Assembly: GCA_021203585.1 (NCBI GenBank)
Contig: JAJQAW010000369.1
Location: 1-16,106, forward strand
Direction: 5' to 3'
Length of the DNA: 16,106 bases
Origin: Rikenellaceae bacterium
Lineage (GTDB): Bacteria; Bacteroidota; Bacteroidia; Bacteroidales; Rikenellaceae
Positions 555-16,106 of the stretch are shown here, one piece after another (within the stretch, counting starts at the first letter, position 1; every line of letters starts with the position of its first letter). The notes beneath the pieces are model-generated. The model was given only the letters and a program-made list of their open reading frames with translations. It did no database searches and was not told the DNA's origin. The position numbers and the translations under genes are program-made.

Positions 555-3500
555 ATGCCTATGAAAAGATTTTACCTGACATTCCTTTCCCTGCTTGTGG
601 GGATCGGATTGTACGCCCAGACTGTGGAAATCACAGGCGTTGTGGTGGACGAAGGCGGAGCTCCGATTATCGGTGCGGCCATAATGGTGAAAGGGACCAC
701 CCACGGCGTGGTCACCGGACCGGACGGCAAATTTACCATCGGTGCGCCCGGCCCGGACGCTACCCTGCAAGTAAATTTTCTGGGTTATAAACCCCGGGAA
801 GTCACCGCGCAACCGGATATGCGGATTGTGCTGGCCACGGACGATGTAGCCATCGATGCCGTTGTGGTAACCGGGATGAATACGATCGACAAGCGGCTGT
901 TTACCGGGGCAGCGGACTTTCTGAATGCCGACGATATCAAACTGGACGGGATGCATGACATCAGCCGCGCCCTGGAAGGGAGATCGGCCGGGGTGTCGGT
1001 GCAAAATGTCTCCGCCACGTTCGGTACCGCGCCCAAAATCCGGATCCGCGGAGCTACCTCCATCCTGGGAAGTTCCAGTCCGCTGTGGGTCGTGGACGGT
1101 ATCGTACTGGAAAATGTGACCGAAATTTCATCCGACGACCTGGCCACCGGAGATGCCGTTACGTTGATCAGTTCGGCCGTAGCCGGATTGAATGCGGACG
1201 ATATCGAGAGCTTTCAAATCCTCAAGGACGGTTCGGCTACCTCCATTTACGGTGCGCGGGCCATGGCCGGAGTGATCGTGGTGACGACCAAAAAAGGACG
1301 GCCGGGAACCAGCCGAATCAATTATACGGGAGAATTCACCACCCGGCTCAAACCCTCCTACCGGGACTACGACATCATGAATTCGCAGGATCAGATGAGC
1401 GTGTACAAAGAGATGGAAGAAAAAGGGTGGCTCAATTTTTCGGACGTCTATCGGGCGCGGAACTCCGGAGTATACGGGCAAATGTATAAGCTGATCAATA
1501 CCTACGACGAAACTTCCGGCCAGTTCGGATTGGAAAATACCGCAGCGGCTAAATACCAATTCCTGCAGCAGGCCGAATACCGGAATACCGATTGGTTCGA
1601 TCTGCTGTTCGACAACGCGGTCATGCAGTCTCATTCGATCAGCGTATCCAACGGTACGGAAAAATCCAGCACCTATTTTTCGCTCAACTACATCAACGAC
1701 CCGGGATGGTACACTCAGAGTAAATTCGACCGGTATACGGCCAACGTGAATTCCAGCTACAACATCCTGCCTAACCTGCAATGGAACATGTATTCCAGTC
1801 TGGCTTACCGGAAACAGCATGCGCCCGGGTCGATTTCCCGTTCCACTTCGCGGTATTACGGGGAGATCAAGCGAGATTTCGATATCAACCCCTTCAGTTT
1901 CGCCACCAACAGCTCCCGAACGCTCGATCCGGATACCTATTACACCCGCGAATATGCCCCGTTCAATATCTTTCACGAACTGCAAAACAACTACATCCAA
2001 TCGGATGTGGTCAATACCAAATTTCAGGGAGAAATCAAGTGGACGGTCATACCGAACCTCGATATTTCGGTCATGGGAGCGGTTAAGTACAATACCACTT
2101 CGCAGCAGCACCACATCAAAGACGATTCTAATTTTGCGGCGGCTTACCGGGCTATGGACGATGCTACCATTCGCGACCTCAACAAATACCTGTATTCCGA
2201 TCCGGATATCGCCAATTCTCTTCCGGTGACCATCCTGGAAGAGGGAGGGATTTACGAAAAGCGGGAATACAAACAGTTGGCTTACGACTTTCGCGCTTCG
2301 GCTACCTGGCGTAGAACTTTTAACAACGTACACATTGTCAATGCTTACGGAGGCCTGGAGTTCAATTCCAACAAGCGGACCAACGACTGGTTCCAGGGGT
2401 GGGGAATGCTCTACAACTACGGGGAACTGGCTTATTCCAACTACCTGGCCTTCAAGAAACTCGAGGAAAACGGGGACAACTATTTTTCCTTGAGCAATTC
2501 GATCTATAAAAATGCCGCCTATTTTGCCACCGCCACCTATTCCTACAAGGCCAAGTACACCGTCAACGGAACCGTCCGTTACGAAGGGAGCAACCGCCTG
2601 GGTAAATCGCGTTCGGCACGGTGGCTGCCGACCTGGAATGTATCCGGGGCCTGGAACATTCACGAAGAAGAATTTTTCGAAAATTGGAGAAACGTCCTCT
2701 CCAGCTTGACTTTCCGGGCGTCGTACAGTCTGACGGCCGACCGCGGTCCCTCGTACGTGACCAATTCCACGCAGATTGTCAAAAGTTATTCTCCCTGGCG
2801 CCCCAGTACGAGTGTCAATGAAACCGGATTGGAAATCGAATATTCGGCCAACCATGAACTGACCTATGAAAAAAAGCACGAACTCAACCTCGGGCTGGAC
2901 GCCAGTTTTCTGGAGGGCCGGATTACCGCGACGATGGATGTATACAAACGGGATAATTACGATCTGATCGGACGGGTTCTCACTCAGGGTATTACCGGTG
3001 AAATCCGGCGTTATGCCAACATTGCCGACATGAGTTCCCACGGGGTCGAACTTTCCGTGCATACCGTAAATATCCACCATCCGAAATTCAAATGGCATAC
3101 CGATCTGACTTTCAGCTATGCCACCAACAAAATCAAAAGCTACAATTCGGCGGCCTACCTGATGAGCCTGGTCAGCGCCAGCATCTTTTCACTGGAAGGC
3201 TATCCGGTGGGCGGATTGTTCTCCATTCCCTATGCCGGATTGGACTATGACGGACTTCCCATGTTCACCGTAGACGGCCAGCGGGTGGACCAGTCCAATT
3301 ACGGAAATATCAATTTCCAAGCTACCTCCGATTATGAATGGCTCAAATACGAAGGCCCCTCCGATCCTCCGTATACCGGCGGACTTAACAATACGTTCAG
3401 TATCGGTGATTTCCGGCTGACCGCCTTCTTTACCTACGCGTTCGGCAATAAGCTCCGATTGAATCCGATATTCAGCAATCAATACTATGACCTGGATGCG

Positions 3501-3881
3501 CATTCCGAAATCTTTAAAAACCGGTGGGTGGCTCCGGGAGACGAACAGTATACGGATATTCCGGTGATCGCCAGCTACCGGCAAAACACCCAGATTTCCC
3601 AGCTTCGCCGGGCTTACAACGCCTACAATTACTCGGATGCCCGGGTAGCCAAAGGGGATTTCATTCGGTTGAAAGAAATATCGGCCATGTACCAATTCCC
3701 GCGCGAAAAAACCCAAAAATGGTTCGGAGGGGATTTATCGCTCAAAGTGGCGGCCACCAATCTTTTCCTGTTGTATGCCGATAAAAAACTGAACGGCCAG
3801 GATCCGGAATATTATTCTTCCGGCGGAGTCTCCTCTCCGTTGGCCCGGCAATTTACATTCACCGTCCGGTTAGGATTTTAA
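555..3881 (+). CDS. SusC/RagA-family TonB-dependent outer-membrane receptor
   Basis: Outer-membrane channel that imports a substrate captured by its SusD partner, powered by TonB. The 1108-residue product has a signal peptide ending in GLYAQ (about 1-22). A carboxypeptidase-regulatory-like beta domain follows at about 24-93 (VEITGVVVDEGGAPIIGA). A TonB-box-like DAVVVTG sits at 101-107 and a plug domain at about 116-247, with RIRGATSILGSSSPLWVVDG and the conserved KDGSATSIYGARAMAGVIVVTTKKG region. The remainder is a 22-strand-type barrel ending in the aromatic C-terminus FTVRLGF. Length and order are normal for the family and the frame is intact. ATG 561 (MKRFYLTF) is as plausible a start as ATG 555. 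It is the first gene of a five-gene operon, with susD 10 bp downstream. The substrate cannot be read from sequence; the neighbours suggest a peptide-containing ligand, as for RagAB. Confidence 0.93.
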   Translation: MPMKRFYLTFLSLLVGIGLYAQTVEITGVVVDEGGAPIIGAAIMVKGTTHGVVTGPDGKFTIGAPGPDATLQVNFLGYKPREVTAQPDMRIVLATDDVAIDAVVVTGMNTIDKRLFTGAADFLNADDIKLDGMHDISRALEGRSAGVSVQNVSATFGTAPKIRIRGATSILGSSSPLWVVDGIVLENVTEISSDDLATGDAVTLISSAVAGLNADDIESFQILKDGSATSIYGARAMAGVIVVTTKKGRPGTSRINYTGEFTTRLKPSYRDYDIMNSQDQMSVYKEMEEKGWLNFSDVYRARNSGVYGQMYKLINTYDETSGQFGLENTAAAKYQFLQQAEYRNTDWFDLLFDNAVMQSHSISVSNGTEKSSTYFSLNYINDPGWYTQSKFDRYTANVNSSYNILPNLQWNMYSSLAYRKQHAPGSISRSTSRYYGEIKRDFDINPFSFATNSSRTLDPDTYYTREYAPFNIFHELQNNYIQSDVVNTKFQGEIKWTVIPNLDISVMGAVKYNTTSQQHHIKDDSNFAAAYRAMDDATIRDLNKYLYSDPDIANSLPVTILEEGGIYEKREYKQLAYDFRASATWRRTFNNVHIVNAYGGLEFNSNKRTNDWFQGWGMLYNYGELAYSNYLAFKKLEENGDNYFSLSNSIYKNAAYFATATYSYKAKYTVNGTVRYEGSNRLGKSRSARWLPTWNVSGAWNIHEEEFFENWRNVLSSLTFRASYSLTADRGPSYVTNSTQIVKSYSPWRPSTSVNETGLEIEYSANHELTYEKKHELNLGLDASFLEGRITATMDVYKRDNYDLIGRVLTQGITGEIRRYANIADMSSHGVELSVHTVNIHHPKFKWHTDLTFSYATNKIKSYNSAAYLMSLVSASIFSLEGYPVGGLFSIPYAGLDYDGLPMFTVDGQRVDQSNYGNINFQATSDYEWLKYEGPSDPPYTGGLNNTFSIGDFRLTAFFTYAFGNKLRLNPIFSNQYYDLDAHSEIFKNRWVAPGDEQYTDIPVIASYRQNTQISQLRRAYNAYNYSDARVAKGDFIRLKEISAMYQFPREKTQKWFGGDLSLKVAATNLFLLYADKKLNGQDPEYYSSGGVSSPLARQFTFTVRLGF

Positions 3882-3891
3882 ATGATAAGCA

Positions 3892-5430
3892 ATGATGAAA
3901 ATAAAATATATCGTATTAGCGGTTATGGCGCTTGGGTTCACCGGCTGCGATAAATTCCTGGACGAAGTGCCCGATTCGCGTATCGAAGTGGATACAAAGG
4001 AGAAAATCCAGTTGTTGTTGGTTTCTGCCTATCCCTCATCCCATCCCATGATGGGTTTCGAACTGATGTCCGATAATCACGAAGACAACGGTTCGCAGTA
4101 CGCCTCCAACGCCGACTTGATTGCGGACTATTACCTGTTTAAAGAGGATGCCTCTTCGATTTCACAGGACAGCCCCTACTACCTGTGGGAATCTTTCTAT
4201 GGGGCCGTTGCGACGGCGAATCTGGCTTTGGAATCCATCGAAATGCTGGAAAATCCGGAAGAGGCCGAGGCTGAAAAAGGAGAGGCATTGTTGTGCCGGG
4301 CTTTCGGCCATTTTTTGGCCGTTCAGACCTTCTGCCAGGCTTACAATACCCTGACCAGCGATACGGATTTGGGAGTTCCCTATTCCACCCTATCCGAAGT
4401 GACGGTGCATGAAAAATACGATCGGTCCAATGTGGCGGAAGTATACCGGAATATCCTCGCGGATATCGAAGCGGGTATTCCTTTGCTGGATGACTCCAAC
4501 TACAAAGTTCCGAAATATCACTTCACCCGCAAGGCCGCCTACGCGTTCGCCGCGGAGGTATACCTGTACTACGGAGATTATGACCGGGCGATCGAATATG
4601 CGACCAAAGCTCTGGGAGACAACCCGAAAGGAGTGCTTCGTAATCATGTGCCGCTGAGCAATGCCACTTCCAATTCCGATGCTCACCTGGCCTACATCAC
4701 CCCGGACGAACAGGCTAACCTGTTGATTTTGCCTTGTATGTCCAACTGGGGACGGTATATGGTGGGAAGTCCTAACTACAACCGGTATGGTCATACCTTG
4801 GCCATTTGCACCAACGGAACTTACCGCAGTTCCGGCCCGTGGGCGGCCAAGGGAAGCAGTTACCTGGCGGGTTTCAAAAACTGGAACCGGACCGGTTATT
4901 CCACTCAATATGTGTACAGCGGATTGGTCAATTATATTTTCGAAACGACCGACGAAGCGACCAATATCGGCTACTATCACACGACCATTCCGGTCTTCTC
5001 CACGGACAAGGCGATACTGGTCCGGGCCGAAGCCTATGTGATGAAGCAACAATACGAACTGGCGGCGCAGGATCTCTCCTGGTGGATCGAAGCCAAAGAC
5101 TGTAATCCCGGGAATGAATACGTGCTGCAGGATTTCCTGGATTATTATTCCACCGCCGACGAAGAATGGATCCGTCAACCACTCAACCCCCGCGGAATTA
5201 CCTTCGCGGACGAAACCCAACTGACCATGCTCTATGCCGTGCTGCATGCCCGTCGGATCGAAACCCAGGGACAAGGATGGCGGTTCATAGACCTCAAACG
5301 CTACGGGATCGGATATGTCAAATACGTATACAACGCCACCGACATTACCCTGGAACCCTGGGATCTCCGCCTGGCGGTGCAAATTCCCTCCGGAGTATAC
5401 GGTTCCGGTATGCAGAAAAACCCGAGATAA
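3892..5430 (+). CDS. SusD/RagB-family nutrient-binding outer-membrane lipoprotein
   Basis: Surface lipoprotein that forms the lid of the SusC channel and binds the substrate. The signal peptide ends in a lipobox GFTGC with the lipidated Cys at residue 19. The N-terminal part has the helical SusD/TPR pattern (SFYGAVATANLALESIE, EALLCRAFGHFLAVQTF, LGVPYST). The C-terminal part carries LHARRIETQGQGWRFIDLKRYGI, the usual SusD region with an R-x-x-E and an aromatic-rich helix. At 512 residues it is normal in length and intact. Tandem ATG codons at 3892 and 3895 give almost identical starts. It lies 10 bp after susC and 14 bp before the metallohydrolase gene, so co-transcription is near certain. 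Confidence 0.92.
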   Translation: MMKIKYIVLAVMALGFTGCDKFLDEVPDSRIEVDTKEKIQLLLVSAYPSSHPMMGFELMSDNHEDNGSQYASNADLIADYYLFKEDASSISQDSPYYLWESFYGAVATANLALESIEMLENPEEAEAEKGEALLCRAFGHFLAVQTFCQAYNTLTSDTDLGVPYSTLSEVTVHEKYDRSNVAEVYRNILADIEAGIPLLDDSNYKVPKYHFTRKAAYAFAAEVYLYYGDYDRAIEYATKALGDNPKGVLRNHVPLSNATSNSDAHLAYITPDEQANLLILPCMSNWGRYMVGSPNYNRYGHTLAICTNGTYRSSGPWAAKGSSYLAGFKNWNRTGYSTQYVYSGLVNYIFETTDEATNIGYYHTTIPVFSTDKAILVRAEAYVMKQQYELAAQDLSWWIEAKDCNPGNEYVLQDFLDYYSTADEEWIRQPLNPRGITFADETQLTMLYAVLHARRIETQGQGWRFIDLKRYGIGYVKYVYNATDITLEPWDLRLAVQIPSGVYGSGMQKNPR

Positions 5431-5444
5431 TATAAATAAATACG

Positions 5445-6323
5445 ATGATTATGAAAAGAATTTTATATGCATTGATTATCTCCGGTATGATCTTCCTCTC
5501 GTGCGAGGAGGATAAAATCAAAGGAGATTCCATATTTGAAAACCCGGACGAGGAGGTCACCGAACTGGACGTATGGCTGGAAAAAAATATTCGTTCCGTG
5601 TACAACATCGAATACCTGTACAAATGGAAGGATATCGAAACCAATATGGGCTTCAATCTGATTCCGGCCACTTACGAGAAATCCCGTGATTGGATCAAGG
5701 TGATCATGTTCCTTTTGCTCTAAGCCTACGACGAAGTGGCCGGAGTGGATTTCACCCGCGCCTATTTTCCCAAGCAAATCCTGGTGATCGGTTCTCCGGC
5801 CATGTACTCTTCCACCAACACGGTGGGTACGGCCGAAGGGGGGATTAAAATCGTCCTGTACGATATCAACAACATCGATCCGACCGATGTGGATGCGTTG
5901 ATCAGCAGCAGTTCGCGATTCAAAACCATGCATCACGAATTCGCCCATATCCTGCACCAATTGAAAGATTACCCGACGGAATTCAAAACCATTTCGGCGG
6001 CCGACTACATCGGCAGCAATTGGAACAACCGCACGGATGCCGAAGTGGCTCCCATGGGTTTCGTTTCCCCGTATGCCAGCAGTGAAGCGAACGAGGACTT
6101 TGTGGAAACGATCGCTATCTGGATTACCTTCTCCGACGCTCATTGGGAAAGTTGGCGGGAACTGGCCGGCGAGGAAGGCTGGGCCATTATTCAGAAAAAA
6201 CTCTCCATGTGCCGCGAATATCTCCAGGAAAACTGGGATATTGACCTGGATAATATGCGCGCCATCGTACAACGCCGGTGTGAAGAGCTGCGTACGATGG
6301 ATATCGATTCGATGTACGAATAA
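5445..6323 (+). pseudogene. SusCD-associated HExxH zinc metallohydrolase lipoprotein, interrupted by TAA
   Basis: The product resembles the substrate import-associated zinc metallohydrolase lipoproteins (HExxH type, near peptidase family Mx1) found beside SusC/SusD pairs. It would hydrolyse the substrate, probably a peptide bond, at the cell surface. The signal peptide ends in a lipobox MIFLSC (Cys 20). An in-frame TAA at 5721-5723 (codon 93) cuts it after KVIMFLLL. The same frame continues with AYDEVAGVDFTRAYFPKQ, GTAEGGIKIVLYDINN and the zinc motif HEFAH (about codons 164-168), ending at 6323. With the stop read through it would be 292 residues, about full length. A GTG at 5736 could restart translation but would give an unexported fragment. 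The rest shows no decay, so the lesion is very recent, a sequence error or bypassed. Confidence 0.8.
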
Positions 6324-6334
6324 ATTGTGGATGT

Positions 6335-7675
6335 ATGAAAAAGTTATTATTACTCATTACCCTGACCGGTCTGCTGATCCCTTCCTGCAAGATCGAAATC
6401 GACGAGACGTTCGATACATCGGCCTCCGAAAGAATCGAGGCGGTTAAGCAGGAATTTTCCGAACTGTTGCTCTCCTCCCCAGCGGGTTGGATTATCGAAT
6501 ATTATCCGGGAGAAAACCGGCCTTACGGCGGGTATGTGCTGTTGGCTCGGTTTCACGAGGACGGTACGGTGAGCCTGTCCTCTCAGGCGGCGGAGGATTT
6601 TTCGCAGGTCCTTACCAGTACCTATTCGATTAACGGCAGCCAAAGCGCGGTCTTGTCCTTCGACGGGTACAACGAAATGATTCATTATTGGTGCGACCCG
6701 CAGGTCACCGGTGGCGCCGGCACTTCAGTCGGCTACGGGGGTGATTTTGAATTCGTTTACTATTCCGGGGACCGAAACCAAATCCTTACTCGGGGCAAGA
6801 AGAGAAGCAGCGTCATCCGGTTTACCAAATTTCCCGAAGACACCACCTGGGAACAGTACCTGACCGATCTGGCCGATCTGGTCGACCAAATGCTTTTCGC
6901 CACCTATAATTTACAGGTCGGCGACCAAGAAACGGTGGTCATGACCTTAGACGCCAACGGGTACCAGATTTTACAGTACAACCATCCGGACGAACCGAAT
7001 CCGGATATTTACACCTACTTGCCCTTTATTTACACCGATACGGGTATTAAGCTTTATGAACCGTTGGACATATTCTCCGTACAGCTCCAAAATTTTCAGT
7101 ACGTGCCGGACAGCAAGACGTTTATCTGTACGGATGAGGGAGTGGATGCGGTGATCGAATGCAAAATGAACGAAGGCTACGTATATTACGAAGAATTCCT
7201 GGGCGACTATACGCTGTATTACGCGACTTCCCGCGGCAATCTGGTAGAGAATACCGTAACCGTAAGCCTGGTGGAAGATGTACCGAACGAATCGTTTAAA
7301 CTCACGGGATTGCAGTACGACATCTATATCGGGTTTAACCGGACTATGGGAATTATCAGCATGCTGAACAACAATAATTCCGTAGAATTGGGTACCTACC
7401 TCTACAACGGCGAAGATAAAGAAATCTTCTTGTGGCTCATTACAGATACCGGACACATTTACCGGACTAATTATACCTATGGTATGGATTCGGAAATCAG
7501 CTATGATGCAGACGGAAAAATGATCGTACAATGGAAGGAGAACGGGGTTTGCTACCGGGCTGCTTCGCGGAATATGGAATCGATCGCATTCTATTATTAT
7601 ACGAATGAAATCACCAGTTCTTACCAATACCTGTCTCCCCGTTACTATGGCCCGTTGAGCATGGTAAAGTATTGA
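6335..7675 (+). CDS. DUF4302-type lipoprotein
   Basis: A 446-residue lipoprotein with signal peptide MKKLLLLITLTGLLIPSC (lipobox LIPSC, Cys 18). The early region (TSASERIEAVKQEF, SSPAGWIIEYYPG, YGGYVLLARFHEDGTVSL) matches my memory of DUF4302, a family of unknown function usually placed after SusC/SusD and an HExxH lipoprotein. Residues about 286-446 form a beta-rich module ending YYGPLSMVKY that is repeated in the next gene. The frame is intact. It starts 11 bp after the metallohydrolase and ends 22 bp before the BACON gene. A role as an accessory surface binding protein is inferred from lipidation and operon position only. Confidence 0.75.
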   Translation: MKKLLLLITLTGLLIPSCKIEIDETFDTSASERIEAVKQEFSELLLSSPAGWIIEYYPGENRPYGGYVLLARFHEDGTVSLSSQAAEDFSQVLTSTYSINGSQSAVLSFDGYNEMIHYWCDPQVTGGAGTSVGYGGDFEFVYYSGDRNQILTRGKKRSSVIRFTKFPEDTTWEQYLTDLADLVDQMLFATYNLQVGDQETVVMTLDANGYQILQYNHPDEPNPDIYTYLPFIYTDTGIKLYEPLDIFSVQLQNFQYVPDSKTFICTDEGVDAVIECKMNEGYVYYEEFLGDYTLYYATSRGNLVENTVTVSLVEDVPNESFKLTGLQYDIYIGFNRTMGIISMLNNNNSVELGTYLYNGEDKEIFLWLITDTGHIYRTNYTYGMDSEISYDADGKMIVQWKENGVCYRAASRNMESIAFYYYTNEITSSYQYLSPRYYGPLSMVKY

Positions 7676-7697
7676 TCATCCGAAAAAATGAATCGTT

Positions 7698-8750
7698 ATG
7701 AGAAAAGAAATAAGTTTATTGCTGATTCCGCTGCTCCTGGCTTTTGCCGCCTGCAGCGATAGTGACGAACCGGAAACCGGTCTGGAAATTATCTCCTCTG
7801 TAGCCGAATTTTCCCCGGAGGGGGGAACCGGGCAGGTGGTGTTTTCAGCGCCGGCCGCCGCGACCGTAAAGTCGACCCAGGAGTGGTGTCAGGTCTCTCT
7901 TTCGGGTTCTACCGTAACCCTGACCGTAGAACCGAACCGAGACAATTTATCCCGGGTATCGAATGTCACCATCACCTCCGGCGGCGAAGAGAAAACGGTC
8001 AATGTATACCAGCACGGTTACGCCATCGTGCTGGGAATCGTCTATTTCGATCTGGAATGGGAAGCCGGCTCCTCGGTTTCGACCACCCTGGAAAATGCCT
8101 CCTCCACGGACATCCTTTCCCATCCGGATTGGGTGGAAGCCATCGTCGGTGACGGTACTTTGACCCTGCGGGCGACCGAGTCCAATCCAAAATTGTTCGA
8201 ACGTACCGGCGAGCTGATTCTTTCGGCTTTCGGGATACGCAAAACCGTGCGGATCGTCCAGCAGCCGCAACCGGTCAGTTATTCGGCATTCCTGGGTGAC
8301 TGGACCTTCCAGTATGCTTCCACATCCAAGGGCGATCCGGACTAGCAGGTGACCGTTTCGTTCATCGAAGATGAATACGACCAATCCTATAAATTGACCG
8401 GATTGCGATACGACATTCATGTTCAGTACGATGCCCAAACCAACCAAATGACCATGGTCAACAACAACTTCGGTTACCCCGTGGGAACCTATTCGGAAGA
8501 GGATTACCTGGTCCGGTTCCTGCTGATAAGCCAGACCAATACGTTCAACCATACCAACTCCACTTATAATATGGTTACCCAGATGGATTTCGATGAGCAC
8601 GAGAACATCCGGTTGAGCTGGATCGACGGGGGCGTATGGAGTTCGATAGCGTACAGCTGGAATTTCTCCTACTATACGGATGCTGCCGACACCGGTACCC
8701 GAGCCAATATATTTTTTTATTACGGACCGTTGACCATGGTGAAGCAGTGA
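7698..8750 (+). pseudogene. BACON-domain lipoprotein with DUF4302-like C-terminus, interrupted by TAG
   Basis: Signal peptide MRKEISLLLIPLLLAFAAC (Cys 19). Residues about 33-106 form a BACON-type beta domain with the usual closing motif (VTITSGGEEKTVNVYQHG). Residues about 112-192 look like a second, diverged copy ending TVRIVQQP. BACON domains are non-catalytic modules of Bacteroidota surface proteins thought to bind ligands or act as spacers. From about residue 197 the C-terminal module is similar to that of the preceding gene (FLGDWTFQYAST, SYKLTGLRYDI, ending YYGPLTMVKQ). An in-frame TAG at 8343-8345 (codon 216) falls inside this module at a point where the paralogous protein reads through. 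Without it the product would be 350 residues. The last gene of the operon. Confidence 0.78.
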
Positions 8751-8762
8751 TCCCTGTCCTAC

Positions 8763-8806
8763 TTACCGGTGCCGGGCGCAAGCTTTTTAACTACCGGCAC
8801 CGGTAA
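8763..8806. repeat. 13-bp perfect inverted repeat after the operon
   Basis: TTACCGGTGCCGG (8763-8775) and CCGGCACCGGTAA (8794-8806) are exact reverse complements around an 18-base loop. No T tract follows on either strand, so it is not a standard intrinsic terminator. It may be a 3' stabilising stem of the operon mRNA or a protein-binding site. Confidence 0.55.
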
Positions 8807-8867
8807 AAGGAATATCTACCCGTTTTCTTCCTGAAAAGATTCTCATTTGGGGAAAAGGAGTCATCCA

Positions 8868-8902
8868 GAAAGACGACCCGCAACCGGTCGTCTTTCTTTT
8901 TT
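8868..8902 (+). terminator. Rho-independent terminator of the susCD operon
   Basis: GAAAGACGACC (8868-8878) pairs perfectly with GGTCGTCTTTC (8886-8896) around a 7-base loop, and TTTTTT follows at once. It lies between the convergent ends of the BACON gene (8750) and the AsmA-like gene (8936). On the - strand the bases after the stem are not T-rich, so it mainly stops rightward transcription. Confidence 0.85.
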
Positions 8903-8935
8903 CGCTCCCAATGCAGGGAGAAATTCCGGAGGAAA

Positions 8936-11900
8936 CTACGGCAGCGTGGAAAGGGAATCCGGAAAATCCGATATCCGGGGGAGCCCGGAGACAATCTCCG
9001 GCGACGAGCCGGTTGCCTGATCGACTCGCTCTGCCGGCGCAGATTCGGAAAGGGCGGAATCCTCATCCGGAACCTCTGGGTCATCGAGGTCCATGTCCGT
9101 TACGGCGGTTTCCGGCCGGCGGGAGCGGATTCGCTCGTGGGTGAATCCTCCGGCCAGTTCGGGGGCATTCCGGGCCAGTTGGCTGCGGATGCTCTCCCGG
9201 ATTCCCGCGCGGAGATTGAGGCGGGTTTCCTGCAATTCCTCTTCCCGGGTCGCTTTGAATAAATCCTTATACCGGCATTTGACCACCTTGAATTTGAAAT
9301 CGTCCAGGTCTCCCGCGATATCGATGCCCAGTTTAAACGGGACCGGCGATTTGAGCACCGAAATGTGGTAATCGAAGGTCATATCCAGGTGGTGCAGGCC
9401 GCCTACGGCCAGTGTATAGCGGTCGATCTCGATTTTGAACGGGAAAATTTCGATCCGGTTGTCCCGGATGGAAAGATCGACCGAGATGTAGTCGATCAGA
9501 TTCTTTTCCTTATTTTTGAACATGAGCTTTTTGGAAATTTCGGAAAACGTTTCCCCGTCCAGCAGCACCATGTTTTCCCCGCTCAGGTAGCAGGCCGAGT
9601 GCAGGGTGGGAAAGATGACGTTCATGGCCGAATCCAATTGGCACGAGGCGGTCATCTGGCCGTCCATAACCCCTTCGAAGGAGCGTAGCATCGGCAACAA
9701 GGTATTGATGGCCGGGAACATGCCCAGCAACCGTTCGACGATGATATCTTCCAGTTCCAGTTCGAAACCCACGCCGGCCGACTGCGGCTCCCGGGCCGTG
9801 TAAACCATCGTCAGGTTGCCCGAACCGATATCCGAATCCATGGCCAACCGCCTTAGATTCACGCTTTGGTTGCGGACGATGACCTGTCCTCGGATTTTTT
9901 CCAGGCGGAGGTCCGTGAAATCGGCTTTGCCGATACGGGTACGAAGCACCAGGTCCAGGTTTTTGGGAACGATGAACAACCCATCCTCGAGGGCCTCTTC
10001 CGTAGAGAGTCCGGCCAGCGGATCGGTTTCGTCCCAGTCGATCAACTCTTCTTCTTCGTCCAATAAACCGGAGAGCTCCGGGGAATTCACTTCACCGGTC
10101 TCGGCCCACAGCGAGCTCCGCTGCATGGCTCCCATCAATTGATTGCAGTCCAGGTAATCGCTTTGCAAAGAAAGATTTCCCTGTAAGACCCCGTTTCGAA
10201 GCATGGCCCGCCGCAAGCCGGAGAGGGATCCGGTCAGGGTCAGATCGCTTTGGCCGATATTCATCCGGGCTTCGGAAAGCGTGATTTGATCGGTATCGAA
10301 TTTCAGCGTGGTCCGCTCCAGTCGGGTCGGCAACGGAAACAGTTCGGTAAAAAACCGCATCCGATCGAATTGGATGCTGCTCCGTATTTCCCACTGGCGT
10401 AAAAGCCGATCGGGTGAATCGGGTTCCGTGGAGGTCGCGAGCCGCACTGAAGAGCCTCCAAGGAGGCTATCTCGTGTCCGGCCGGAGGAGTATCCGGAAG
10501 CTGCTGGTTCGGTAGATCGGCGTTCCCGGGTGATCCCGGCGGTTCTGCGCTGCCGCATGGCTTCCCGCAGCGGAAGCATTTCCAGGTCGAACCCCGCGTG
10601 ATTCATCGTCAGTCGGGTGCGGGCCGGAATATCCGCGTAGCGGAGCGTATCCAGCGTAATCTTACCCCCGAACATACCCATTTTGGGATTGGAAGACGAG
10701 CCTTTGAGACCGCCGTCGATGGCGATTTTACGGCCCGAAAACAGTACGGAATCGGGCAAACGGACGGTGAGGTGGTCTATTCGTATCTGCGTAGCTACCG
10801 GCTGTACCCGGGTCGTATCCCAGGTGCGGGAGGTGTGAAGCTGCGCATCCAGTGCACCGACGCGGGCGCTGGTGTGTCTTCCCGAACGTAAATGGAGGGT
10901 ATCCACCTGCAGTCGGGCGGTGACCCACGGTTCCTCGCTTCGGGAGATCCGGGACCGGCGGGCCGTATCGGCTGAAAAATGTACGCCGCTCATAAACAAA
11001 CTGTTTCGAGAGACGCGGTCCGCGACCAATAACCGGTCCATACCGAATTTACCGGCGGCATCCAGGGTGCCGAAATCCCCGTCCATTAAATCCCACAGGC
11101 GGAAATTCGCCCGAATATCCGCGTTCAGGATTCCCTTCACCAACAGGGTGTCGGGATTGAAGATTTCTCCCACGATTCCCTCAAAATCGACGGTTCCCTG
11201 CATCGAAGCCTCGATACGGGGATCGGTCAACAACCGGTCCGCGCGGCCGGTGGCGAAAAAAGCGGTGTTGGATCCGTGTAATTCCAGTTTACGGAACTCC
11301 ACAAAGGAGGAATTCGCCGCGGTTCCGTGACAAAATAGGGTCAAATCGGTTTCCAATTTTTCGATGCCGCGGCTCGAACCTTTTCGTTTGAGCGATCCTT
11401 TTTCCAGTGAGCAGGTGATTCGTACATCGGGTAAGGGCTGCTCGCCGAGCAAACCGTTGATTCTTCCGCGCACTTCCAGCTTGCCGTTGGCTTCGGTACG
11501 TCTCTTTTCGGCCCAATAGACATCGGGAATAAATCGGAGAATATCGGCCAGATTTTCTGCTTGCAGCGTAAAACGGACATCCATCCGCAGGCTGTCGTCG
11601 GCTTTCTCGATTTCGCCTTCGGTCCGGAAAGGAAGCTCGTTGAGCATCAGCCGAGATTCGATAAAGCCGATTTTTCCCCGTTGCACATTCAGTTTACTCT
11701 CGAACCGGAGCGCTAATTCCTGATCCAACCGGTATGCGGGACTGTCGAAGCGTATCGATTCGAAACCGGTTTTGAGCTCCGAGTAGAGGCTTCCCTGGGT
11801 CAATTGGTTGCGCAACCGAAGATTGAACCCGGTCACTTCCGTGTACAACCCGGTGGTTCGGTCTTCGTATATAAAATGTCCGTTGCGGATGCCGATCCGT

Positions 11901-12448
11901 TGCAAATCGATAACCGGCAGCGGTTCCGGCTCCGAATCCAACTCCGGCTCCGAATCATCCGGCGCTTCGGGCGGCGAGTGAGCCGGCTCCCCGGAGATCA
12001 ATATATCCTAGTTGGCCCGGCCAGACTGGTCGATCAATCCGTAAAAAAAGGGCTCTTTCAACGTTAACCGATCCACGGTGATCCGGTCATGCTGAAAATA
12101 ATCCCGAATATTGACCGAAACGACCGCTTCCGAAAAGCGAAGCAGTGTCTCGGGATAGCAACCGTGTTCTTCTTCCGGAGCGCTATTCCGCTGTGGAGCG
12201 GAAAGAACTTCGCCGCCGGTGATCCGTAACCCGACCTGCGGAAAGGTTTCGATGAACGTCAGTTCGATTCGCTCGCAACGGATTTCACCCTCCACCAGCG
12301 GGTCGATATAACCGACCACCAGCGGAGTGAGTCTCTCCGGGGGAAGAACGCCCCATTTGATAATAGCGATACCGATGCCGGGCAATACCAGGAAGAGGTT
12401 GACGAATAGGATCAAAGGGATCATCCAAACTTTCTTTTTTATGCTCAT
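8936..12448 (-). pseudogene. AsmA-like protein, interrupted by TAG at codon 147
   Basis: AsmA-family proteins are long, membrane-anchored beta-groove proteins in the envelope; relatives are linked to lipid transport between membranes. The start chosen is ATG 12446-12448 (MSIKKKVWM), which places an N-terminal membrane helix at about residues 5-27, followed by PERLTPLVVGYIDPLVEG, a typical AsmA opening. The typical C-terminal region ends with SVLKSPVPFKLGIDIAGDLDDF and a charged tail. An in-frame TAG at 12008-12010 falls in GRAN*DIL, where the family usually has N-W-D, so the lost residue is probably Trp. After the stop comes an acidic Pro-rich linker and the rest of the protein (about 1170 residues in all). 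A TTG at 11999-12001 could restart a product lacking the membrane anchor. Apart from this codon the 3.5 kb frame is clean. Confidence 0.8.
11925..11956. repeat. Two 14-bp direct repeats, 18-bp period, inside the AsmA-like gene
   Basis: TCCGGCTCCGAATC occurs at 11925-11938 and again at 11943-11956. On the - strand it encodes the acidic linker D-S-E-P-E-L-D-S-E-P-E-P just after the premature TAG. The period is six codons, so copy-number change would keep the frame. Confidence 0.6.
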
Positions 12449-12498
12449 ATTCGTATAGGCTTTAAGTCCGGTTAGGCAGGCAACGGGCGCCGTCTCTG

Positions 12499-12506
12499 CA
12501 AATGTA
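12499..12506 (-). promoter_or_regulatory. -7 promoter element for the AsmA-like gene
   Basis: On the - strand this reads TACATTTG, a perfect TAnnTTTG. It lies about 50 bases upstream of the AsmA start at 12448. A TTTG occurs upstream (12521-12524 on the - strand) but only 14 bases away, shorter than the usual 19-21, so the -33 element is poor or absent. Confidence 0.45.
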
Positions 12507-12736
12507 ACGATCCCCGTTGGCAAAACGTATAGCGGATTCCAAAAAAGTTTCGGACCGGGCTCCGGAATTTTAGCGTGTTCTGCCTTTAAAAAGGGAAATC
12601 CGATGGGGGCCCGGATTACCGTATGAAAGAAAAATTGAATATATTTATCCACAATCGGAAATGAACCGGGACGGATCGTCATTTCGATATTTTTAATAGA
12701 ACGCTGATCCAATACTTGATTCGAAATCGTAGGACC

Positions 12737-14634
12737 ATGAGAAACTGCAAATTAAAAAAAATAGGGTTGTTCCTCTTGTTGCTGTGTATGGGGGGATGCC
12801 GGTACGGAAATATTCCGGAAGAGGTGCATAAAGCGATCCTTCTTTCGGGAAATAATTCCTCTGAATTGATGAAAGTATTGCATCATTACCGTCGCCCACA
12901 GGACTCACTCAAACTGCAAGCCGCTTATTTTCTCATTGCGAATATGCCGGGTAAATATTCCGAATACATCGATGCCCCTTGAAACGATGTGGCTACGGTT
13001 CGGTTGCGGTGGAGCAGTTCCTCCGACAAACGGTTGGTTACGGATACTTACCGAACCGATAAATGGATTCGGAAAAAGGATATTACCCATATCAAAGCAG
13101 ATTTTTTGATCGATAACATCGATCTGGCTTTTCAGGTGTGGGAAGAAACACCGTGGGGGAAAGAACTCTCTTTCGACCTTTTTGCGAATTGATTTTGCCC
13201 TATCGAATCAGCACCGAACCGTTGGAAAACTGGCGGGAAAAAGCGTTGGCTAGTTTTGCCGATCTTTACCGCTCTTTTTTGGAAAACGACACGTTGAGCC
13301 CGGTCGAAGCTTGTGTTCAACTCAACCGATTACTGCCCCGGTTCCGGGTGGACCGGGATTTCCCCGTCATGAATTTTTCGCAACTGATGGCTTCTTCCCG
13401 GGGAAATTGCGATGCGATGGGATCCCTGGCTATTTTCGCGATGCGGGCCTTGGGAATTCCGGTAGCCAAAGAGTTTACCGTTCAATGGCCCCACAAGCTT
13501 TCTGCCGGCGGACATTCGTGGAATTCGGTCTATGACGGTCAGGGTGGTTATGTCTCTTTTATGGGCACCGAAGCGGATCCCGGCGAACCGCATCAGGGAT
13601 TGGGACCTAAGTATAAAGTTTTCCGGCAAACTTTTGGCCGGCAGATTAATCTTCCGTTGGACCGTAAGCATATATCGCCACGACTGCAGGACAAGTATTT
13701 TATCGATGTCTCTTCCGAATATCCCGATTGTCCGGATATCGTGGTTCCCCAACGGTTTTCCCCTTCCGAACCGACCGGTTATGCTTACCTGGCCATACTT
13801 ACCCAAAACGGATGGGAACCGATTGCCTGAGGGGAAGAGGGCCCGTTGGAGATTCAATTTTCCGGCGTGGGTCACAATTTGCTGTACCTTCCGGTGTACT
13901 ATGCCGACGGTTCGAAGAGTCCCGCGAATTATCCCTTCCGGCTGGGGGAGGATGGCCTTTGCCGGTTTTTCGATCCGGAAGCTCCACCGGTCGAATTGGT
14001 GTTTGAGGGGATCGCAAAAGATACGCCGATTTACTTAAACTTGATGCTTGACGGGCGGTTCGAGGGGGCCAATCGTGCCGATTTCTCCGATGCGCGGTTA
14101 CTGCACCGCATCCAGCAGGTAGAGGGTGGTTTCTACCACACCGTTCCGGTGGAATCGGCCGCGCAGTACCGGTATGTCCGCTACGTCTCTCCGGATAGCA
14201 GCCGCTGCAATGTGGGAGAATTGGAATTCTTCGATACCCGGGGAGAACGATTGACGGGCACGGTCATCGGCAGCCACGGCTCGGATGCACAAACATCGCC
14301 CGGCAATGCCTTCGACGGGAATGTGGCTACGGTGGTCCAGTTGGACCCACTTCACGATGCCTGGATCGGATTAGATTTGGGTGTACCGACCGGTATCGGT
14401 CAAATCCGTTATTTACCGCGAACCAACGGCAAAAATATTTATGAGGGTCATCGGTACCGGTTGACCTATTGGGATGGGCACGAATGGGTGACCACGGAGG
14501 AACAAACCGCCACGGGCCATCGGTTGCACTGTCGGGCTCCGGAAAACACGATTTTCTATCTCTACGATGCTACCCAAAAAGTGCAGGGAAGCTATTTCGT
14601 ATTGGAGGACGGGGTACAAAGATGGTTGTTTTGA
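12737..14634 (+). pseudogene. Lipoprotein with transglutaminase-like and discoidin-like domains, broken by two TGA codons and a frameshift
   Basis: ATG 12737 opens MRNCKLKKIGLFLLLLCMGGC, a lipoprotein signal (Cys 21). The product would be about 632 residues. A conserved helical region (AFQVWEETPWGKELSFDLF, then LPYRISTEPLENWREKA) precedes a transglutaminase-like core with catalytic-type Cys in RGNCDAM (Cys codon 13408-13410), His in GGHSWNSVYD and a following Asp. The C-terminal 150 residues look like an F5/8 type C (discoidin) module (GELEFFD, NAFDGNVATVVQ, WIGLDLGVPTGIGQIRYLPR). Three lesions interrupt it: TGA 12980-12982; a missing T at the T5 run 13179-13183, which puts the downstream protein in the -1 frame; and TGA 13828-13830 in PIA*GEEG, probably a lost Trp. 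The motifs are otherwise preserved. A cell-surface role in protein or peptidoglycan modification is only inferred. Confidence 0.75.
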
Positions 14635-14732
14635 CCGATTCCATTTCTCCGGGGTACACCGACAGGCCATAAGACGGATTCTTCGGTGTCATCGAACCGT
14701 CTGCCGAAGACGAAGCTTTCCCGGTGATGCAA

Positions 14733-15584
14733 TCAGATTTCGCGAACCATTTCATACTGCCGGCCCGAAACCGTTATATGCAGCGTTCGTAAGAATTCGG
14801 TCAGTGCCGTGCAACGAACCTCGGTATTGATGATTTTCAACTCCTGGGCACGGTTCCGGTTCAGGGCCTCTTGCAGCAGCGCCGATCCGATGCCTCGCCG
14901 CCGCTGATCCGGACGGACGGCTATTCGCGCGATATCTCCCGCGGCGGGTTCTAACACACAGTATCCGAGCCAATCTCCCTGCTCGTAGGCACCCAAAACG
15001 ATAAAATCACCGGATGAACGGGCGATCGCTTCGTCGCTGTTTTGCCACGAGGGAAGAAAATCTCCGTAATCGGGCAGCGCGCCGAACGGGTGCCGGTCCA
15101 GGCAACGGACCGAACCGGTGAAGCAGCCCAACCGTTTGACAGGGGGAAGCTGCTCCCTCGGTGTGCGGAAATAATTAAATTCCCGACTGACCCGGAAGCC
15201 GAGTTTGCGGTAAACGGAAATGGCTTTTTCGTTGTGCTGCAACACTTCCAACAGGTACCGGCGGATGCCGGCTTGCCGCAGAAAGGGGAGTGAAAATTCG
15301 AAAATCCGGGTCGCAAGTCCCTGATTGCGGTACTGCGGAAGTGTCCCGGTGCCCGTATCGTAGGCGGTCCTCAGCCCCTTCCAGGTTCCGATACCGTTCA
15401 GGGTAAAAGCCGCAATCCGGTCCCCGTCGAAAGCGGCGAAAGAAAGCGTGGGATCAAACCCGCGGCGGGTGAGCATTTTCTGCAATTGCAGGGCGTCCAA
15501 TTGCATTTCATAGTCGGCAAAAGCCGCTTCGAATGCGGGGAACAGGGAGTCGAAGCCGGTTTGTGCGAGGGAGAGAATTTCCAT
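14733..15584 (-). CDS. Tandem GNAT N-acetyltransferase
   Basis: Intact 283-residue protein with two GNAT acetyl-CoA-binding folds. The first has the motif A loop QYRNQGLA (84-91) and the downstream N-x-x-A-x-x-x-Y-x-K-x-G-F signature (118-130). The second has IAVRPDQRRRGIGSALLQEAL (221-241). Both keep the R/Q-x-x-G-x-G/A pattern that holds the pyrophosphate of acetyl-CoA. It is soluble, with no signal peptide. ATG 15582-15584 is the chosen start because it gives a complete first beta strand. It is convergent with the transglutaminase lipoprotein gene (98 bp apart). The acceptor substrate cannot be deduced; tandem GNATs in Bacteroidota acetylate diverse small amines or peptides. Confidence 0.85.
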   Translation of the reverse strand: MEILSLAQTGFDSLFPAFEAAFADYEMQLDALQLQKMLTRRGFDPTLSFAAFDGDRIAAFTLNGIGTWKGLRTAYDTGTGTLPQYRNQGLATRIFEFSLPFLRQAGIRRYLLEVLQHNEKAISVYRKLGFRVSREFNYFRTPREQLPPVKRLGCFTGSVRCLDRHPFGALPDYGDFLPSWQNSDEAIARSSGDFIVLGAYEQGDWLGYCVLEPAAGDIARIAVRPDQRRRGIGSALLQEALNRNRAQELKIINTEVRCTALTEFLRTLHITVSGRQYEMVREI

Positions 15585-15646
15585 TCTTATTCACTTTAAG
15601 CGGAAAAAATCGAAAGGTGATCGGTCTGAAAAACGCTCGAAAAAAA

Positions 15647-15654
15647 TACCTTTG
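15647..15654 (+). promoter_or_regulatory. Perfect -7 promoter element without an obvious gene
   Basis: TACCTTTG matches TAnnTTTG exactly and follows an A-rich stretch. A TCTG at 15625-15628, 18 bases upstream, is a possible weak -33 box. It points right, into the 3' end of the - strand sigma factor gene, and no + strand gene follows within the window. It may be chance or drive an antisense RNA. Confidence 0.3.
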
Positions 15655-15711
15655 TACCTGCAATTTTTATCCGGAGGATTTTTTATAGGTATACAAATAT
15701 TATAGGCAACC

Positions 15712-16106
15712 CTACCGCCCCATCAGGACCCAGGCCATCAGTACGGAATACAGGTGCCGGAACAGTTCCTGCCGCAAGGCTTTAGAGGCCACTTCCACGT
15801 GCTTTTCCACCGTGCGGGGCGAAATTTCGAGTTTCTGTCCGATTTCCGCGTAAGACATATTTTGAAATTTACTGAGCAGGAACGATTCTTTTTGTCGGGC
15901 CGGTAGTTTGTCGACTGCATCGAGGATCAACGACCGCAGTTCCTCGCCGACGTACAGTTCCGGGGCGAGCGCTCCCTGCGGCTCTCCGGTTTGGAGCGTT
16001 TCTTCCTGGAACCGGCTGCGCACCTGCAGGTGCTAGATGTAATTGAGGCAACCGTTGCGGGTGGCCTTGAACAGATAAGCCTGCTCGATCAGGGCGGGGG
16101 AACGGT
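15712..16106 (-). pseudogene. ECF-type sigma-70 factor (Bacteroidetes expansion family), partial, interrupted by TAG
   Basis: Only the 3' part is in the window; the gene enters from the right edge. The frame reads ALIEQAYLFKATRNGCLNYI, the end of sigma region 2, then a TAG at 16033-16035, then HLQVRSRFQEE and a full region 4 (LPARQKESFLLSKFQNMSYAEIG, helix-turn-helix SPRTVEKHVEVASKALRQEL). The pattern fits the Bacteroidetes-expanded ECF sigma factors, which normally direct transcription of SusC-type genes with a FecR anti-sigma factor. With the TAG obeyed, the promoter -35-binding region would be lost. A GTG at 16021-16023 could start a region-4-only fragment. The gene ends with TAG at 15712-15714. 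No partner FecR is visible. Confidence 0.75.

Follow-up and report, generated by a model that had tools for sequence, protein, structure and literature searches.

In-frame stop codons scattered through a Rikenellaceae metagenome-assembled genome are most likely errors of the assembled sequence

Several known situations place stop codons inside bacterial genes that remain recognizable. Metagenome-assembled genomes (MAGs) of low coverage may hold base errors in their consensus, young pseudogenes carry stops at Trp, Gln and Arg codons of proteins that are otherwise recognizable, UGA can be reassigned to Trp, as set out together with a tRNA-Trp of 4-bp anticodon stem in PMC13092985, and TadA-dependent A-to-I editing of mRNA, as reported in bacteria (PMC12214031), would convert UAG or UGA to a codon for Trp. 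Here, six in-frame stops and one frameshift in a 16,106-nucleotide stretch of DNA (contig JAJQAW010000369.1 of assembly GCA_021203585.1; hereafter the window) are compared with these systems. The window is contig C381 of a Rikenellaceae MAG (G000; 2.29 Mb, 404 contigs, 82% complete). Like low-coverage consensus errors, such lesions occur genome-wide in the contigs sampled, are evenly distributed, come with few frameshifts and include one at a contig tip that an overlapping contig contradicts; unlike them, they lack the expected missense excess in the conserved genes tested. The resemblance to young pseudogenes lies in the stops at Trp, Gln and Arg and in the recognizable proteins, whereas the few frameshifts, the even spread and a broken ribosomal protein set the MAG apart. 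Two TGA codons at mainly Trp positions recall the UGA reassignment of PMC13092985, but the MAG also has TAG and TAA in frame at other residues, ends genes with TGA and possesses a tRNA-Trp with a full anticodon stem; A-to-I editing could not restore the acidic, Gln, Arg and Lys positions found here. We conclude that faulty assembled sequence, and not unusual biology, most likely accounts for the window stops, and that they, together with the frameshift, probably stem from wrong bases in the consensus of a metagenome assembled from short reads at low coverage.

All seven lesions listed in a sequence-only reading of the window are present, and they break five of its nine genes: a TAA (5721..5723, forward strand) in a zinc-binding metallopeptidase gene; a TAG (8343..8345, forward) in a BACON/DUF4987 gene; a TAG (12008..12010, reverse) in an AsmA-like gene; two TGA codons (12980..12982 and 13828..13830, forward) and a frame change at a five-T run (13179..13183, forward) in a transglutaminase/discoidin gene; and a TAG (16033..16035, reverse) in an ECF sigma factor gene. 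Six stops per approximately 4,900 codons (the sum of the genes) is a density above chance.

Premature stops were counted in a sample of 59 contigs of the genome (570,378 bases), and lesions were found throughout the sampled MAG, so that the excess is genome-wide in the sample and not a property of the window contig. When sequences were scanned for stops flanked on both sides by same-frame, coding-like stretches, the MAG gave 59 stops in 570,378 bases. The comparison sets gave 13 for a same-genus genome (G001; 599,056 bases), 2 for nine other genomes (278,846 bases) and 17 for 34 named loci (616,682 bases). These counts are from one of seven settings, at all of which the MAG had the highest rate with the sets in the same order, and this setting recovers four of the six window stops; a stricter scan gave 11 matches in the MAG, 2 in G001 and 0 in the other two sets. 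The numbers of scan stops per contig fit a Poisson distribution, with a dispersion of 0.97. A census based on homology pointed the same way, with 22 stops in 49,546 aligned residues of the MAG against 5 in 232,687 residues of all other genomes (4.4 and 0.21 per 10,000 aligned residues, respectively), and with zero in G001 (23,151 residues) and G008 (21,276). The count of 22 is an upper bound that includes some rows which are not lesions: two on contig L067 lie in an upstream extension overlapping a neighbouring gene, one on L077 lies 38 bases from the contig start, and several on L068, L076 and L077 are in doubtful frames. Four of the five control rows were judged to be upstream extensions, while the fifth, on L034, looks real; here a TAA (L034:702) lies inside a SusC homologue of the Muribaculaceae MAG UW_MP_MUR1_1, where the reference has Gln. 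Two earlier censuses had given 41 stops in 45,036 aligned residues, many of them in shadow frames, and 6 stops plus 2 frameshifts in 16,221 residues of the MAG against 19 plus 10 in 211,420 residues of all other genomes, with 11 of these 19 control stops deriving from a single open reading frame (L043:7089-7526) over a tRNA. That frame overlaps tRNA-Gln L043:7269-7340 and is probably no gene. Among the TonB-receptor matches in the MAG, 4 of 17 carry a stop. A Viterbi gene parser was set aside because it mishandled reverse-strand gene ends and returned high counts in both genomes.

In decaying genes, indels are normally at least as numerous as nonsense changes. In the MAG, stops are raised and frameshifts are not: six frameshift candidates were found in the sample, four of them at gaps of exactly ten N (32 such gaps occur in the sampled contigs), leaving two in addition to the one in the window. 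The control genomes gave five candidates, four of which were against one reference open reading frame. An apparent rpoB frameshift turned out to be a ten-N scaffold gap, as did the one on L077.

Evidence on how the bases may have gone wrong comes from contig ends. In rpoC, a TAG stands 86 bases short of the L108 contig end, and the overlapping contig L105 (139 bases, 4 mismatches) reads Leu at this position. Similarly, contigs L006 and L007 share a 112-base end overlap with 6 mismatches, all of them in the half adjoining the L006 end. These mismatches are direct evidence of wrong or variant bases at contig ends; the rpoC tip is the only place where a second contig contradicts a stop, and among the contig matches no window site is doubly covered. 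The last bases of the window (16052..16106, no strand assigned) are identical to the first 55 bp of contig C387 (L066), an overlap of the kind that a de Bruijn assembler with k = 55 would leave, and this overlap and the ten-N gaps together suggest what we take to be a SPAdes-like assembler. C387 carries another SusC-like gene and is probably a neighbour of the window contig. Short dispersed repeats of about 33-130 bp connect nine sampled contigs when only pairs above 85% identity are considered (e.g. L020:3301-3362, L067:5215-5276, L105:385-446). In stretches covered by one or few reads, a wrong base could enter the contig, and since about one in twenty amino-acid-changing substitutions would yield a stop, stops would be the changes that readers notice. 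By analogy, the interior lesions of the window probably arose like the rpoC-tip stop, in sequence whose coverage is presumably low. Consensus error is favoured because the stop excess runs across the sampled contigs, is even and comes with few frameshifts, because the essential ribosomal protein L5 is affected, and because the rpoC tip is contradicted; among the options listed in the sequence-only reading it is the best supported. A literature search combining MAGs, premature stops, sequencing errors and low coverage found no paper.

Outside the window, the gene for L5 is interrupted by a TAG at a position that is Glu in G001, in flanks identical at 20/20 and 18/20 residues and a protein 83% identical overall (the name rests on the upstream piece, at 182.3 bits slightly below the cut-off of 186). 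A sugar porter of the XylE type, named from its first piece, has three stops in 460 codons; in seven relatives, one of these falls at a variable position (Lys and Trp among others), one at Gln (7/7) and one at Arg (7/7). In an ABC ATPase, a TAA replaces the Lys of the reference. Downstream of the transporter with three stops, a gene (L073:4378-5769) shows 40 private changes compared with 21 in the G001 copy, which hints at more errors on that contig than on most. A TAA in a tRNA-synthetase match on C262 was rejected as a lesion; it sits upstream of the start codon, and a few relatives show such stops too.

Could the stops be real, that is, recent nonsense mutations in accessory genes under relaxed selection, accompanied by a few assembly errors? 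Three of the six window stops stand at mainly Trp positions and others elsewhere in the genome at Gln or Arg, as transitions would give; the Codetta paper (PMC8629427), on yeasts, attributes in-frame stops in pseudogenes most likely to transitions of codons such as UGG. Young pseudogenes would also be consistent with several highly conserved genes being intact and with 13 conserved genes showing no excess of missense changes. Opposed to this are the mere two frameshifts outside N gaps, compared with as many as 22 stops, the broken L5 gene, the even spread of the scan stops over contigs, and the finding that the broken genes do not hold the missense changes that neutral drift would bring. Because strong missense damage is absent, real nonsense mutation is retained as the main, if unlikely, alternative.

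The same shortage of missense changes also weighs against consensus error, and further observations belong on that side of the balance. Random substitution should bring approximately 19 missense changes per stop. In 13 conserved genes with an outgroup, private changes numbered 208 in the MAG and 213 in G001 over 5,027 columns, whereas an excess of about 20 to 40 would be expected at 2 to 4 stops per 10,000 codons; the observed value falls short of this expectation by about 1.4 to 2.2 standard deviations. In the C-terminal part of the transglutaminase gene, a gene with three lesions, 0 of 78 conserved columns are changed (other homologues have a median of 2.5%), the XylE-type gene with its three stops has 14 private missense changes against 8 in a relative, and in tRNA stems, a test of low power, 6 of 255 pairs are unpaired compared with 21 of 544 elsewhere, with no excess of mismatches. 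No internal stop was found in rpoB, in rpoC outside the contig tip or in four tRNA-synthetase genes, and the ribosomal contigs L104 and L067 gave 26 aligned stretches, three of them with a stop, of which only that in L5 was judged to lie inside the gene. With regard to gene role the picture is thus divided, lesions being evenly spread and reaching L5 while rpoB, most of rpoC and the four synthetase genes are free of them. Finally, the scan stops comprise 27 TAG, 26 TAA and 6 TGA (n = 59), where uniform substitution predicts 41, 40 and 19% and a transition-rich spectrum 44, 33 and 23%; TGA is low against both predictions, and the spectrum of stop types therefore does not choose between the explanations. 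Taken singly, other genes gave small positive differences. In rpoB and rpoC, 8/517 and 6/613 conserved columns are changed in the MAG compared with 4/513 and 4/611 in G001, and in the AsmA-like gene 29/258, including the stop, compared with 20/249 and 23/252 in the two nearest homologues; the XylE-type gene is a further case. The N-terminal part of the transglutaminase gene has 3/36 changed (median of others 2.8%), and SusC has 10/181 compared with 15/186 and 8/179 in the two most deviant homologues (median 0). The sequence-only reading had described the proteins as otherwise undamaged, and this is partly borne out: it holds for the C-terminal part of the transglutaminase, and two broken genes look little damaged apart from their lesions. 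Little missense damage beside the stops is the main evidence against plain random error.

If the template had been damaged instead, cytosine deamination would have written C:G to T:A changes into the consensus. Stops at Trp, Gln and Arg positions are of the kind expected, and among single-base private changes of rpoB and rpoC, C:G>T:A accounts for 4 of 9 in the MAG and 0 of 6 in the relative. The 13-gene set shows no such bias, with 18 C:G>T:A changes in the MAG and 16 in the relative, and acidic, Glu and Lys positions are affected too; we regard deamination as very unlikely. That the stops are not accompanied by surplus missense changes would favour general readthrough, in which a Bacteroidales lineage copes with in-frame UAA, UAG and UGA genome-wide, including in L5, with near-cognate tRNAs reading through to give full-length protein; we consider this highly improbable.

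Recoding in a narrower sense, through a reassigned codon, a suppressor tRNA or the conversion of UAG or UGA to a Trp codon by A-to-I editing, makes a prediction about the residues lost. These could be compared with homologues at four of the six window stops (12008, 12980, 13828 and 5721). Position 12008 is Trp in 7/7 aligned homologues, chosen from 29 other matches; at 12980, Trp occurs in 25 of 26 selected homologues (one gap) and in 63 of 70 of a wider set; and 13828 is Trp in 26/26 and 59/70, respectively. Of 32 homologues at 5721, 26 have Asp, 4 Glu and 2 Gly, and a conserved Trp two codons upstream of this TAA is likewise altered, which counts in favour of consensus error. Of the remaining two sites, 8343 is spanned by one homologue, with Lys, and 16033 by none. 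The sequence-only reading had counted two lost Trp residues and fitted the others to Gln or Trp codons; instead, three sites are mainly Trp and 5721 is acidic, and its view of all lesions as compatible with G:C to A:T transitions is unsupported both there and at the Glu and Lys positions elsewhere in the genome. The proteins do go on past the stops, the three mainly-Trp sites could be restored by A-to-I editing of UAG or UGA, a process reported for bacterial mRNA, and TAG ends only genes of the window that are themselves broken. This last point qualifies the earlier statement that all three stops end genuine genes here: TAA and TGA end intact genes, and TAG is found only at the ends of the AsmA-like and sigma factor genes. 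Across the MAG, however, 98 homologue-matched gene ends carry TAA (52), TAG (20) or TGA (15), with none within eight codons in 11, and all three codons therefore terminate. The replaced residues are mixed overall and include, besides Trp, an acidic residue (5721), Glu (L5), Gln and Arg (XylE-type gene) and Lys (ABC ATPase). With this mixture, and with each of the three stops terminating genes as well, the stops obey no single recoding rule, in line with the earlier claim that reassigning one codon does not explain them. Nor do all stops lie at Trp positions, as editing would require, since 5721 is Asp or Glu in 30 of 32 homologues, and recoding by one rule or by A-to-I editing is thus unsupported. 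Among 15 tRNAs of the MAG there is no anticodon that reads a stop, and the tRNA-Trp has CCA and a full anticodon stem; the set is incomplete, G001 having 39 tRNA matches, and a suppressor could still be missing from the bin. We consider readthrough of these kinds highly improbable.

The genes of the window comprise a Bacteroidales SusC/SusD-type locus (SusC, SusD, Mx1 peptidase, and DUF4302 and BACON/DUF4987 lipoproteins) followed by AsmA-like, transglutaminase/discoidin, GNAT and partial ECF sigma factor genes. On the forward strand, the SusC/RagA-type TonB-linked outer membrane protein (555..3881; TIGR04056, 630.8 bits) is intact without internal stop, as is the SusD-like lipoprotein (3892..5430; PF14322, 126 bits), both ending in TAA. 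The Peptidase_Mx1 gene (5445..6323, forward), broken by its TAA, continues in frame past 5721, with PF15890 at 188.9 bits on the downstream piece. It is followed by an intact DUF4302/DUF4987 lipoprotein (6335..7675, forward; PF14135, PF16377) ending in TGA and by the broken BACON/DUF4987 lipoprotein (7698..8750, forward), with PF13004 on the upstream piece and PF16377 on the downstream piece at 25.6 bits, below the cut-off of 28.7. The AsmA-like gene (8936..12448, reverse), broken by TAG and ending in TAG, is 52% identical to P0002, whose source name is AsmA family. In the transglutaminase-like and discoidin-domain gene (12737..14634, forward), PF01841 matches the middle piece and homologues reach at most 60% identity. 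The two-domain GNAT acetyltransferase (14733..15584, reverse; PF00583 in two stretches) is intact and ends in TGA, and the ECF sigma factor (15712..16106, reverse; PF08281, and TIGR02937 at 47.7 bits), broken by TAG and ending in TAG, runs off the contig end. A PADLOC search with four window pieces gave no match. The searches turned up no independent copy of the species, other matches reaching at most 52% for AsmA, 60% for the transglutaminase gene and 57% for SusC, for which the contig set may omit records very near the window.

If the stops are an artefact, rough MAGs used as species representatives may carry scattered false stops that resemble pseudogenes or recoding. If they are real and are read through, they would point to a new way of living with stop codons.

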